The translations under genes were made by a program, and so were the position numbers. From Neonectria sp. B-13 (taxonomy: Eukaryota; Ascomycota; Sordariomycetes; Hypocreales; Nectriaceae): 64,000 nucleotides of DNA. The stretch's first letter is position 1. The number at the start of each line of letters is the position of its first letter. Positions 14,559-18,755 of this stretch are shown piece after piece. Below the pieces are notes generated by a model. It was not told the origin of the DNA. It saw only the letters and a program-made list of their open reading frames with translations, and searched no databases. Location: positions 1,189,559 to 1,253,558 of the forward strand of contig NOKP01000014.1 of the NCBI GenBank assembly GCA_002682825.1. Direction: 5' to 3'.

Positions 14559-15041
14559 AGAAGACAAGTCTGGGGTCGGCAGTTGAGATCAGCTTAGTGT
14601 ATCATATAACCTCAAAACACTACGGCGAACTACACATGGGAAATGATGGTGACCACGATATTCGAGAATAGAGAAATTGGGTAAAGAATTGGATAAGTAG
14701 TTACGCAACTGAGACCACCAAAGCCCAACAACACCTTACTCGCGAATTTGACTTGTATGAGGGCATTGCGTGAGCACTCAGGTAGCAGCCGCTGGCTGCG
14801 GGACGTGGTTTCGGAACTGGCCACAATGGGCTCATCGCTCTCGACGTAACAGCTTGCAAGAAAGATGAGCCACGATTCTGGAAGGGACTAAGGAATTTGA
14901 CAAAATGGTAGAAGGAGAGTGTGTACAGGCGCGGCAAGAACGAGTTGAAGGCAAGCAACGCTGGGAAGGTCCCTGGGTGCGCCTCGAAACCCAACTCAAG
15001 CTAGGTGAACTTTTTTTCTTCTTTTTTTCTTTTCTTTTTGA
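14559..15041. other. intergenic between DHAD and the microexon gene
   Basis: No gene seen. A T-rich tract (15008-15039) precedes the first recognisable splice donor of the microexon gene. The 15 or so bases before it resemble the sequence just upstream of the second copy near 29150. Confidence 0.5.
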
Positions 15042-16602
15042 CTGTACACCATCACACACCCGGTAAGTGAACTTTTTTCGCTTGAATTCTTGACGAACGT
15101 GCCGATACTGACGCTGCACGCAGACCCCCGACCGACGACGGTATGTGGCCTCCCACACCATTCCCCTGGCTTTGGCACTTTACGTGGAACTAATGTTCAA
15201 CCTCAAGAAGACCAAAATGCCCACTGTATGTGGTGCTCCCTCCAACCCTACCACTATTATCAGGAAGCTCAACTAATTCAATGCAATAGTACCCGTCGCT
15301 CACCGTAAGCCGACCCTCATCCTTCCCCGCGCTTCAACTCCTCCCGCCTCTCGCCCTGTCCCTCACCTCATGACCGGAAGACTCGCCATCCATTGCGGTG
15401 TTGACTGGTGGTAAATGAACGGAAACTGACATGCTGGATAGAATGACCGCCAGCCCGGCCGCCGCCCCAGGGGGCGCAAAGTAAGTCCTCTCCACGATTG
15501 ATAGTTTCTTTGGAGAACGTGGCTGAATGAGATGTAACAGCACCAGCCCATCGCCGTCCCGGCCCCCGTCCCGGGCCCCGTGGTACGTCCCAACGTGGTC
15601 CATGCGTCTCGATATTTTGATTTGTCTAGTGAAGCTAAACGTCTAGCAGCGAGCCCTTGTATGTCGTCCCCGCAGCCCGCCCATGAAACATGTGCAACAA
15701 TGTCGCAGAGATTGACGCATGATCATTAGAAGGGAACCAGGCAGGTAAGTTTCTTCTTGTCTAAACGAGATTCTGAGGACGTTGACTTAACTATTTCCAT
15801 TAGGCGGCTGCCGAGAACGTTGCCGTATGTATCCTGTCCTCTTTGACCAAGTCTTACATGCTTACTAGCTTCAGTTTTGGCGGCAGAAGGCCATAGTAAG
15901 TTGCAGTCTTCTCAACTAACATGACATCTCCAAATCCTAACCTTGACCTACATTCTAACTGACTCTGACCTCAACCTGAAACCTAACTGATATGGCATAT
16001 AGAACCTTCAAACTGAGAGTGATGGGCTGCTGGCCCAACGAGACGTGCGAAGCTCCTCCATCTACGGCCTTTCTGCTATTTGACTAACCATCTATGTGTA
16101 GGCCGCCATCAAGAAGGCCGTCGTATGTACCATGCGCGCTTGTTGTAAACGAGTTGACTGACATGGATTGTTACGATAGCATTGGAAGGCCATTGAGGCC
16201 GGCGTAAGTATTCCACTGCACACACGCGCATGGTACAACTTGGACAACCCACTAACAAGATTTGCTATTAGGGCAACCATTTGGAAGTGAGCCATCATTT
16301 CCTCGGAGTTTTGAAGATTGGAGCAAACTACTAACAATCCCAAGGAGCCGTCCGTTCAGGTCGCGGTAACTGAACAAACGTTTCTATTGCAGGTATGAAG
16401 TACAATCTAACATGTCATCTATAGCGACTGGTTTCGGAGGCCCTGGCCGCCAGGGCCAAGGTCAAGCAGGCCGATGCTGTAAGTACTCTCCCAAATCCTC
16501 ACACCAACAGCAATACCTGCCAAGTCTCCTGGGCTTCACGCGTACTGACGTACTGACAGGGAAGCAAATACCTGAAATTTGAGGGCCCCGGGCCCATTGT
16601 CG
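15042..16602 (+). CDS. unrecognised gene built of phase-0 microexons (3' end unresolved)
   Basis: I do not recognise this family. Two probable untranslated exons end at 15062 and 15140 (introns 15063-15123 and 15141-15207). The ATG at 15217 has a strong context (ACCAAAATGCC). Coding exons: 15217-15225, 15290-15304, 15442-15480, 15541-15582, 15647-15658, 15730-15744, 15804-15824, 15869-15895, 16003-16044, 16102-16122, 16180-16203, 16272-16286, 16345-16365, 16425-16478, and 16560 onward. Exon lengths are 9,15,39,42,12,15,21,27,42,21,24,15,21,54: all multiples of three, all joined in phase 0, with no stop in 133 codons. Nearly every intron has GTAAGT/GTATGT-like donors and a CTAAC/CTGAC-type branch site. 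The product begins Pro/Arg-rich and basic, continues as Ala/Lys-rich helical segments, and reaches GSKYLKFEGPGPIV. No signal peptide is visible. The frame then runs into the COX4 promoter without a stop; a GTAAGT donor at 16603 may splice onward. Confidence 0.62.
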
Positions 16603-16635
16603 GTAAGTCACGTGTGTCACATTACCTCTTTCCTG

Positions 16636-16645
16636 ATTGGCCAAT
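16636..16645. promoter_or_regulatory. palindromic CCAAT element upstream of COX4
   Basis: ATTGGCCAAT joins two CCAAT boxes head to head, about 117 bp upstream of the COX4 start. CCAAT boxes bind the Hap2/3/5 (CBC) complex, which activates respiratory genes including COX4 in fungi. Use by this gene is inferred from position. Confidence 0.5.
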
Positions 16646-16761
16646 TGCCTTGCCCGAATTGGGTCCGCCATTCAACTTCCTCCCAAATCAGCCCATCCTC
16701 ACAAATCCCTCGACAACCTCCCAGCTTCACCCAAACCTCCATCGCCGGCGCAATCGACACA

Positions 16762-17618
16762 ATGTTCATGCAACGCACCGCCATCGCCGCGGCCCGCCGC
16801 GCCGCCCTCCGCCCCGTCGTCGCCCGCACCTTCACCACCTCCTTCGTCCGCCGTACGCTTTTTCCTCCCGCCCGCTCAATCGCAATCCTCGTATGATGAT
16901 GACTGGTGACGATGGCTGACCTCTGTTGTGCTCCCAGGCGATGCTCCCAAGGCTCCCGCTCCCGCTGCCGCTGCTCCTTCTGCCGAGACCAAGGTCGGCG
17001 CTTACAAGACTCTGAAGGGTACGTCCGCCGCGATTCCGAGCCCAATTGCCATCTGCCCGCATCTCCCATAACCTCGGTCGAGTCATTGTGAGGGTCACAT
17101 CCGCTGACGAGAAGCCGTCAACAGAGATCCAAACTGATGAGGATCTCTTCGGCCCTGGTGCCAAGCCCGGTACCGTGCCCACCGACCTCGAGCAGGCTAC
17201 TGGTCTGGAGCGTCTCGAGATTCTCGGTAAGATGGAGGGAGTCGACATCTTCGACATGCGCCCTCTTGACGCCAGCCGCCTGGGAACGATGGAGAACCCC
17301 ATCGTCGTCCGATCCGCCGGTGATGAGCAGTTCGCCGGTTGCACCGGCTTCCCCGCCGACTCCCACAACGTCCACTGGCTCGGCGTAAGTGCCCTCCCTT
17401 GATGATGATATCCGGACGGACGGGATTGAATTGCTAACTACGTCGACTGACTACAGATTACCCGTGACCGCCCCATCGAGCGATGCCCCGAGTGCGGCAG
17501 CGTCTACAAGATGGACTACGTCGGCCCCGAGGAGGACCACCACCACCACCACCCTCAGGAGGTCGAGGAGCCCAAGACCTTTGCCGATTACATCAAACCC
17601 GAGTACCGATACCGATGA
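16762..17618 (+). CDS. COX4: cytochrome c oxidase subunit 4 (mammalian COX5B homologue), 4 exons
   Basis: Nuclear-encoded, zinc-binding subunit of mitochondrial complex IV, facing the matrix. Exons 16762-16852, 16938-17018, 17125-17384, 17457-17618; 197 aa. The N terminus is a classic matrix presequence, rich in Arg/Ala/Ser and lacking acidic residues (MFMQRTAIAAARRAALRP...). Core family blocks follow (LERLEILGKMEGVDIFDM, then ENPIVV). The zinc ligands C130, H138, C154 and C157 have almost the same spacing as in yeast Cox4. A run of five His (HHHHH) sits in the acidic C-terminal extension. The upstream gap to the microexon gene is only about 160 bp and contains a double CCAAT element. Confidence 0.95.
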
Positions 17619-18260: not shown

Positions 18261-18755
18261 TCAGCCTTCATCTTCGTCAAAGCTCAACTTGATCTTCTTG
18301 GACTTCTTTTTGGGCTTGCGGTCCTTTGCTCCCTCTTTGGCGTCGCCCTTTTCACCGTTGCCAGCAGCGTTCTTGTTGGCGGGCTGGTCGGCAGAGTCGC
18401 CAATGACCTTTCCAACCTTGCGTTTTCGTCCGCCGATGGAGGCCTTGCTGTTGGACTCCTTGGCCGTCTCTGCAGCGGGCGCAGCTGTCGACCCGCCAGG
18501 GGCGTGGTCCTGCGTGTCCTTGACGACGCCGTCCTTGTCCACCTCAAGGTCCCTCACGACATTGCCGTCCTCGTCGACGATCAGGGGCGCGTCTTCGGCC
18601 TCTTCGCTGCTGGACCGCTTTTTGGCGGATCTGCGCTGGGCGGCGAGCAAAGGGTCGGGACCCCGAGCGCCGGAGGCTTGGGCGCGGAGAGCGGCGAGAA
18701 AGGGCGGGGTGGAATCGTCGTACTGCAGGTTCTTGGAGGTGATTTTGGGTGCCAT
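18261..18755 (-). CDS. DUF4604 family nuclear-looking protein
   Basis: Single exon, 164 aa. The N terminus (MAPKITSKNLQYDDSTPPFL, then AALRAQ) matches what I recall of the fungal DUF4604 family. The rest is charged and disordered, with Lys-rich clusters (GGRKRKVGKV, KPKKKSKKIKL) that read as nuclear localisation signals, and an acidic end (FDEDEG). No catalytic motif is visible and the function is unknown. It converges with COX4. Confidence 0.75.
   Translation of the reverse strand: MAPKITSKNLQYDDSTPPFLAALRAQASGARGPDPLLAAQRRSAKKRSSSEEAEDAPLIVDEDGNVVRDLEVDKDGVVKDTQDHAPGGSTAAPAAETAKESNSKASIGGRKRKVGKVIGDSADQPANKNAAGNGEKGDAKEGAKDRKPKKKSKKIKLSFDEDEG

Follow-up and report, generated by a model that had tools for sequence, protein, structure and literature searches.

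Between the dihydroxy-acid dehydratase (DHAD) gene and COX4 of Neonectria sp. B-13, a predicted chain of microexons runs along the + strand at positions 15042-16602 of the window, that is, of the whole stretch of 64,000 nucleotides that was analysed. All fourteen coding introns of this chain up to position 16559 fall between codons. It is very likely that the chain is a real + strand gene, and it is probable, though with considerable reserve, that it represents a skip-tolerant predicted gene for a small basic protein, with all coding introns placed between codons.

The exon chain and its coding character

Both neighbouring genes lie on the + strand and were identified by Pfam (ILVD_EDD for DHAD and COX5B for COX4). 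The features of the locus are the following.

15010-15039, + strand: pyrimidine-rich (T/C-rich) tract, a possible core promoter by its putative role, with the transcription start predicted just 3' of the tract
15042-15062, + strand: predicted 5' untranslated exon 1, its start guessed; donor GTAAGT at 15063, 10.2 bits
15124-15140, + strand: predicted 5' untranslated exon 2, 17 nt; acceptor 15123, donor 15141
15208-15225, + strand: start exon with ATG at 15217, MPT (splice model and joined frame)
15290-15304, + strand: microexon YPSLT, 15 nt (splice model and joined frame)
15442-15480, + strand: exon NDRQPGRRPRGRK, 39 nt (splice model and joined frame)
15541-15582, + strand: exon HQPIAVPAPVPGPV, 42 nt (splice model and joined frame)
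15647-15658, + strand: microexon QRAL, 12 nt; 9 nt via the neighbouring acceptor 15649 (exon from 15650), which the model prefers
15730-15744, + strand: microexon KGTRQ, 15 nt (splice model and joined frame)
15804-15824, + strand: microexon AAAENVA, 21 nt (splice model and joined frame)
15875-15895, + strand: microexon FWRQKAI, 21 nt; 27 nt via acceptor 15868 (exon from 15869)
16003-16044, + strand: exon NLQTESDGLLAQRD, 42 nt; its donor GTGCGA at 16045 is the weakest in the chain, 3.6 bits
16102-16122, + strand: microexon AAIKKAV, 21 nt (splice model and joined frame)
16126-16143, + strand: 5' arm of an inverted repeat, in the intron upstream of exon 16180-16203
16180-16203, + strand: microexon HWKAIEAG, 24 nt, flanked by both repeat arms (splice model and joined frame)
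16220-16237, + strand: 3' arm of the inverted repeat, in the intron downstream of exon 16180-16203
16272-16286, + strand: microexon GNHLE, 15 nt (splice model and joined frame)
16345-16365, + strand: microexon EPSVQVA, 21 nt; acceptor AAG
16425-16478, + strand: exon RLVSEALAARAKVKQADA, 54 nt (splice model and joined frame)
16560-16602, + strand: final chain exon, GSKYLKFEGPGPIV plus one base, 43 nt, ending in phase 1
16580-16582, + strand: stop of an alternative 3' end, reached after QIPEI via the neighbouring acceptor 16564

The exons were delimited with a self-written splice and gene model in which the intron costs were set by hand. The model was trained on 264 kb (the window and the 200 kb upstream of it, with 57 genes and 110 introns), with positions 14900-16930 masked, and the chain was searched for as the best series of introns, the reading frame being left unused. 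With the intron cost set at 5 bits, 13 of 13 internal coding exons in an uninterrupted row (9-54 nt) were multiples of three, and the two 5' untranslated exons were also recovered. The fact that the internal coding exons are all multiples of three means that the 14 coding introns are in phase 0. The symmetric phase-0 microexon chain of the original prediction was thus recovered by a model that is blind to frame and had the locus masked in its training. The branch sites in the introns of the window are CTAAC or CTGAC; these sites, the introns themselves and the two neighbouring genes would suit a filamentous ascomycete.

At costs of 2 and 0, the weak intron 16603-16691 is added, and the 43-nt exon becomes a fourteenth internal exon, with a length not divisible by three (13 of 14). 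At the strictest cost, 8, three introns are missed (15305-15441, 15659-15729 and 15825-15874), which counts against the gene model, as does the weak donor at 16045; at this cost, 7 of 10 internal coding exons have a length divisible by three, the exceptions being the three fused exons. A coding-aware finder with free choice of phase returned the same chain, in which the 14 introns up to 16559 are in phase 0, but preferred to start at the in-frame ATG at 15193, which adds eight residues if the intron 15141-15207 is retained. The alternative acceptors 15646/15649 and 15868/15874 differ by 3 and 6 nt, and the frame is kept with either member of each pair, but the alternatives 16559/16564 do not differ by a multiple of three. 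The frame had been said to stay open for 133 codons from the ATG at 15217; this length is obtained with acceptor 15868, while acceptor 15874, preferred by the model, gives 131.

Two minor regularities were observed in the chain and at its 5' edge. A direct repeat links 15002-15016 with 15064-15078 (14 of 15 positions identical), its second copy starting inside the first donor GTAAGT. Six of the 13 internal exons (15290-16478) are multiples of seven codons, which is unexplained; the P value of 0.006 is uncorrected and belongs to the best of 10 periods.

The joined exons (394 nt) form 131 codons without a stop, with a codon-usage score of 40.9 bits versus -27.7 and -25.0 in the other frames. For 5000 mixtures of local non-coding pieces, the mean score was -23.7 (sd 9.5) and the maximum 12.3, and the stop-free fraction was 0.0004. 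The G+C content is 65.5% in the exons and 44.6% in the introns. The phases, the open frame and the codon usage are three signs of a coding gene. A locus without a protein product, either the host of a non-coding RNA or snoRNA transcript or a chance run of splice signals, would be in line with the lack of a protein family match above cut-off and of a confirmed relative in the viral contigs. Nonetheless, codon usage and the open frame argue against it, and so do the shuffled sequences, which never came close to the locus in score: 150 dinucleotide shuffles reached a maximum of 4.8 bits versus 32.6 for the locus, the minus strand of which scored -1.3. Furthermore, no match above cut-off was found in 14600-16900 (best E 9.7) with Rfam, a database that may lack fungal snoRNAs. 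A locus of this kind is considered highly improbable.

Microexons and intron phase in the rest of the genome

Elsewhere in the 264-kb sample, a length divisible by three is found in 24 of 60 internal exons, and phase 0, the commonest phase, in 49 of 110 introns. At this background rate, the probability of finding 14 phase-0 introns out of 14 is approximately 1.2e-5. The 13 of 13 exons of the locus compare with 40 of 94 control exons (Fisher P 5e-5), where the control set mixes two methods, given that it contains 60 finder exons and 34 splice-only exons (16 of 34 multiples of three) from two enzyme loci described below, argininosuccinate synthase and adenylosuccinate synthase, with GMP synthase (4 of 12 at cost 5) left out. 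The chance estimate made earlier, (1/3)^13, comes to 6e-7, and becomes 1.5e-5 when the control rate of 40/94 is used.

With 32.6 bits, the locus ranks at the top of 1050 overlapping 1750-bp windows that cover the 264 kb on both strands, and the best window in an extra 50 kb from two other contigs reached 13.7 bits. When strong intron signatures were simply counted, the locus had 14 in 1600 bp and the next separate window 9. Over the entire 264 kb, these signatures number 250 on the + strand and 229 on the - strand, fewer than the 295-345 obtained in five shuffles; their sole unusual aspect is the clustering at the locus.

Whole-genome searches covered 61 Mb in 123 contigs. The pattern searches gave at least three places with neighbouring microexons among the matches listed, and the three that were retrieved were identified by Pfam as the genes for argininosuccinate synthase, adenylosuccinate synthase and GMP synthase. 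These contain 10, 7 and 9 internal exons of at most 54 nt, respectively, and show that the method recovers microexon-rich genes carrying known domains. They lie outside the 264-kb sample and, having been picked for their microexons, serve for comparison rather than as a random sample. The enzyme genes resemble the locus in their microexons and splice signals and differ from it in coding for conserved enzymes and in the phases of their introns, which are mixed in all three finder models. Internal exons that are multiples of three amount to 6 of 18 for argininosuccinate synthase, 5 of 8 for adenylosuccinate synthase and 6 of 12 for GMP synthase, the last two models being incomplete. The splice-only scores of the first two loci are 30.7 and 31.3 bits per 1750-bp window, and GMP synthase reaches 46.0 bits over 2.2 kb, which means that the microexon chain is not the highest scorer of the genome. 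Microexon-rich genes are a feature of the genome of Neonectria sp. B-13, and the oddity of the locus is its uniform phase 0. From the original claim of an unusual microexon gene, it is the symmetric phase 0 that stands, whereas the possession of many microexons per se is shared with three mixed-phase enzyme genes.

The enzyme genes also bear on the proposal that the chain is an ordinary, anciently intron-rich gene with constitutive exons, where the uniform phase 0 results from lineage bias or chance and skipping is irrelevant. The fact that three enzyme genes of the same genome are likewise cut into microexons, and that phase 0 is the commonest phase, is what such a gene would lead one to expect. 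The mixed phases of these same three genes and the low probability of 14 phase-0 introns at the background rate point the other way, leaving an ordinary gene as a possible but doubtful explanation.

Single-microexon patterns were not enriched genome-wide over a reversed control (190 versus 392, 210 versus 432 and 152 versus 248). Further loci of the uniform-phase kind may be present in the genome beyond the matches listed. No second copy of the gene was found in the 61 Mb by a protein search with an approximate query in which one exon was misread; it returned four weak matches, all inside the locus, and distant relatives would escape it at such exon sizes. When the DNA of 15200-16620 was searched against its own genome, the single match was the locus itself. 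An origin of the introns as copies of one mobile element was discarded, given that merely two short direct pairs occur within the locus and that the genome DNA match is the locus itself.

A separate observation from the pattern searches concerns the assembly. Among the matches listed, many form mirror pairs, the coordinates of which sum to a constant for each contig. These were seen in contigs C20, C27, C36, C38, C41 and C54 and in the first parts of C1, C40 and C50, and the sums obtained among the matches listed were 1460298 for C20 (six pairs), 1050730 for C36 (six pairs) and 1450800 for C27 (nine pairs), with one pair in C41. The mirror pairs mean that long stretches of these contigs resemble inverted palindromes, which look like assembly fold-back or real palindromic structure.

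Tolerance to exon skipping and known microexon genes

Filamentous fungi splice via recognition of short introns. The introns of the chain are 50-137 nt long and flank exons of 9-54 nt and, therefore, with recognition of this kind, tiny exons between short introns would likely be skipped often. Selection, or a biased gain of introns, could then have left frame-neutral joints only, and messages that are mis-spliced, or shortened deliberately, would still yield protein. As computed from the gene model, the skipping of any one internal exon merges its two introns into one of 130-236 nt, creates no new codon and keeps the frame. Introns of 130-236 nt are long for this genome (75th percentile 76, 95th percentile 270), which counts against skipping, but they are within range.

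An inverted repeat is found in the two introns around exon 16180-16203, with 16 of 18 positions paired. Arms of this kind, 40-120 nt apart, occur in 3 places in the 264 kb, including the locus. The stem is present in the predicted fold, which is modestly unusual in its stability (z -2.46, with 3 of 200 shuffles equally stable), the arms having been spotted post hoc. Because its flanking introns are predicted to pair, looping the exon out, exon 16180-16203 appears as the best candidate for regular skipping.

Genes built in a comparable manner have been described in animals. In schistosome micro-exon genes (MEGs), approximately 80% of the coding region lies in symmetric exons of 6-36 bp, and the products are almost always secreted or membrane-anchored (PMC5825161). 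The likeness lies in the runs of short symmetric exons, where the frame is kept on skipping (PMC5825161). At the locus, 351 of 394 coding nt are in symmetric pieces of 9-54 nt and 174 of 394 (44%) in pieces of at most 36 nt, so that the locus is symmetric but falls short of approximately 80% at the exon size of the MEGs; unlike the schistosome products, that of the locus has no visible signal peptide, and one copy is seen in the genome. Aphid bicycle genes form a gene family in which the internal exons are numerous, unusually small and almost all in phase 2 (PMC9168663); they share with the locus the many tiny internal exons and the near-uniform phase (PMC9168663), but the locus has phase 0 in its 14 coding introns up to 16559 and one copy.

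For fungi, three reports describe microexons or small exons. Xlr2 of Trichoderma virens has a functional, switch-like microexon in a transcription factor gene (PMC11121469), which is like the locus in being a microexon of a filamentous fungus and unlike it in being one microexon and not an entire gene (PMC11121469). Basidiomycete P450 genes contain microexons (PMC1184071), and a transferred basidiomycete gene has undergone massive intron gain and has small exons (PMC3584928). By analogy, massive intron gain as in PMC3584928 is one possible route to a structure such as the one described here. No fungal gene made wholly of symmetric microexons was found among the titles and abstract openings listed by searches of the open-access literature, which is not proof of novelty.

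If the chain is transcribed as predicted, the symmetric-microexon plan of flatworms and aphids would extend to a filamentous fungus, in a product without a visible signal peptide. This would uncouple the plan from host-directed secretion and suggest that the unreliable splicing of tiny exons is generally answered by frame-neutral exons. Standard gene callers would probably miss or mangle genes of this type.

The predicted product and the 3' end of the chain

Residues 1-44 of the predicted product are proline- and arginine-rich and basic (9 K/R versus 1 D/E), and the remainder is charged and alanine-rich. The N-terminus, MPTYPSLTNDRQPGRRPRGRK, was read by eye and contains no hydrophobic stretch, in agreement with the earlier statement that no signal peptide is visible. 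No cysteine is present in the 131-residue product. Bicycle proteins have paired cysteine-tyrosine-cysteine motifs, and the product, in contrast, is without cysteine and hence without such motifs. Searches of Pfam and PDB with the product gave nothing above cut-off, and a PHROGs search with the approximate query, one exon misread, gave no family match; in the viral contigs, no relative was confirmed. Annotated orthologues of the gene may well exist. An intracellular role, perhaps in binding nucleic acids, is a guess.

Three candidate assignments were set aside. A coiled coil is unsupported, given that the hydrophobic moment at periods 3.5-3.6 does not exceed that of shuffles (P 0.55 for residues 45-86, 0.39 for 92-118 and 0.43 for 45-118). 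A Ctp1-like domain was suggested by the best match among solved structures (4x01, E 0.33), which is regarded as chance, and the Pfam match to Paxillin (E 0.015) is below the family cut-off and is ascribed to the proline-rich composition.

The last exon of the chain ends in phase 1 and is followed by COX4, the first two exons of which are placed as follows.

16762-16852, + strand: COX4 exon 1, the N-terminal 30 residues upstream of the conserved domain, which we take to be the mitochondrial targeting part
16938-17018, + strand: COX4 exon 2; of the acceptors up to 400 nt from donor 16603, its own scores best, and it is in matching phase

The chain could be an alternative 5' part of COX4, where a splice from 16602 to 16938 would replace the targeting exon by a 131-residue N-terminus, an arrangement compatible with skip tolerance. 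Donor 16603 is strong (8.9 bits), and the acceptors before the COX4 start score at most 0.1, versus 8.0 for that of COX4 exon 2 (16937). The phases agree (1 and 1), no stop interrupts the joined frame before that of COX4, and the frame that enters from acceptor 16559, unspliced at 16603 or beyond, stays open until 16919. When given free choice at full coding weight, the finder selects this splice. Nonetheless, the finder tends to join neighbouring genes, having once called a single gene from DHAD through the chain to COX4, and with the coding weight halved its path to COX4 exon 2 is a different one, via an exon 16560-16890. When the chain is cut off before COX4, the finder ends the gene via acceptor 16564 with QIPEI and a stop. 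Such a separate gene (43.7 bits) and COX4 alone (87.8 bits) add up to 131.5 versus 134.5 bits for the joined model, a gap that depends on the hand-set gene-start cost and is a tie within the parameters. The agreement of phases has a 1-in-3 chance, and, at 335 nt, the intron would exceed the 95th percentile (270). Furthermore, the motifs CACGTG (16609-16614) and ATTGGCCAAT (16636-16645) are likely promoter elements of COX4 itself; they lie just past 16603 and, therefore, the last donor of the chain adjoins the COX4 promoter.

The splice into COX4 is considered unlikely on this evidence. If used, the 43-nt final exon would be an adapter from the phase-0 series to the phase-1 joint of COX4 exon 2, and the splice would give a respiratory subunit two N-termini by a new route. 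That the chain serves as a frame-neutral cassette for a second, interchangeable COX4 N-terminus, where any internal skipping pattern would give an in-frame COX4 without the targeting exon, is at least as unlikely. Further along the window, a single-exon gene with Pfam DUF4604 (E 1e-36) is found on the minus strand at 18261-18755.
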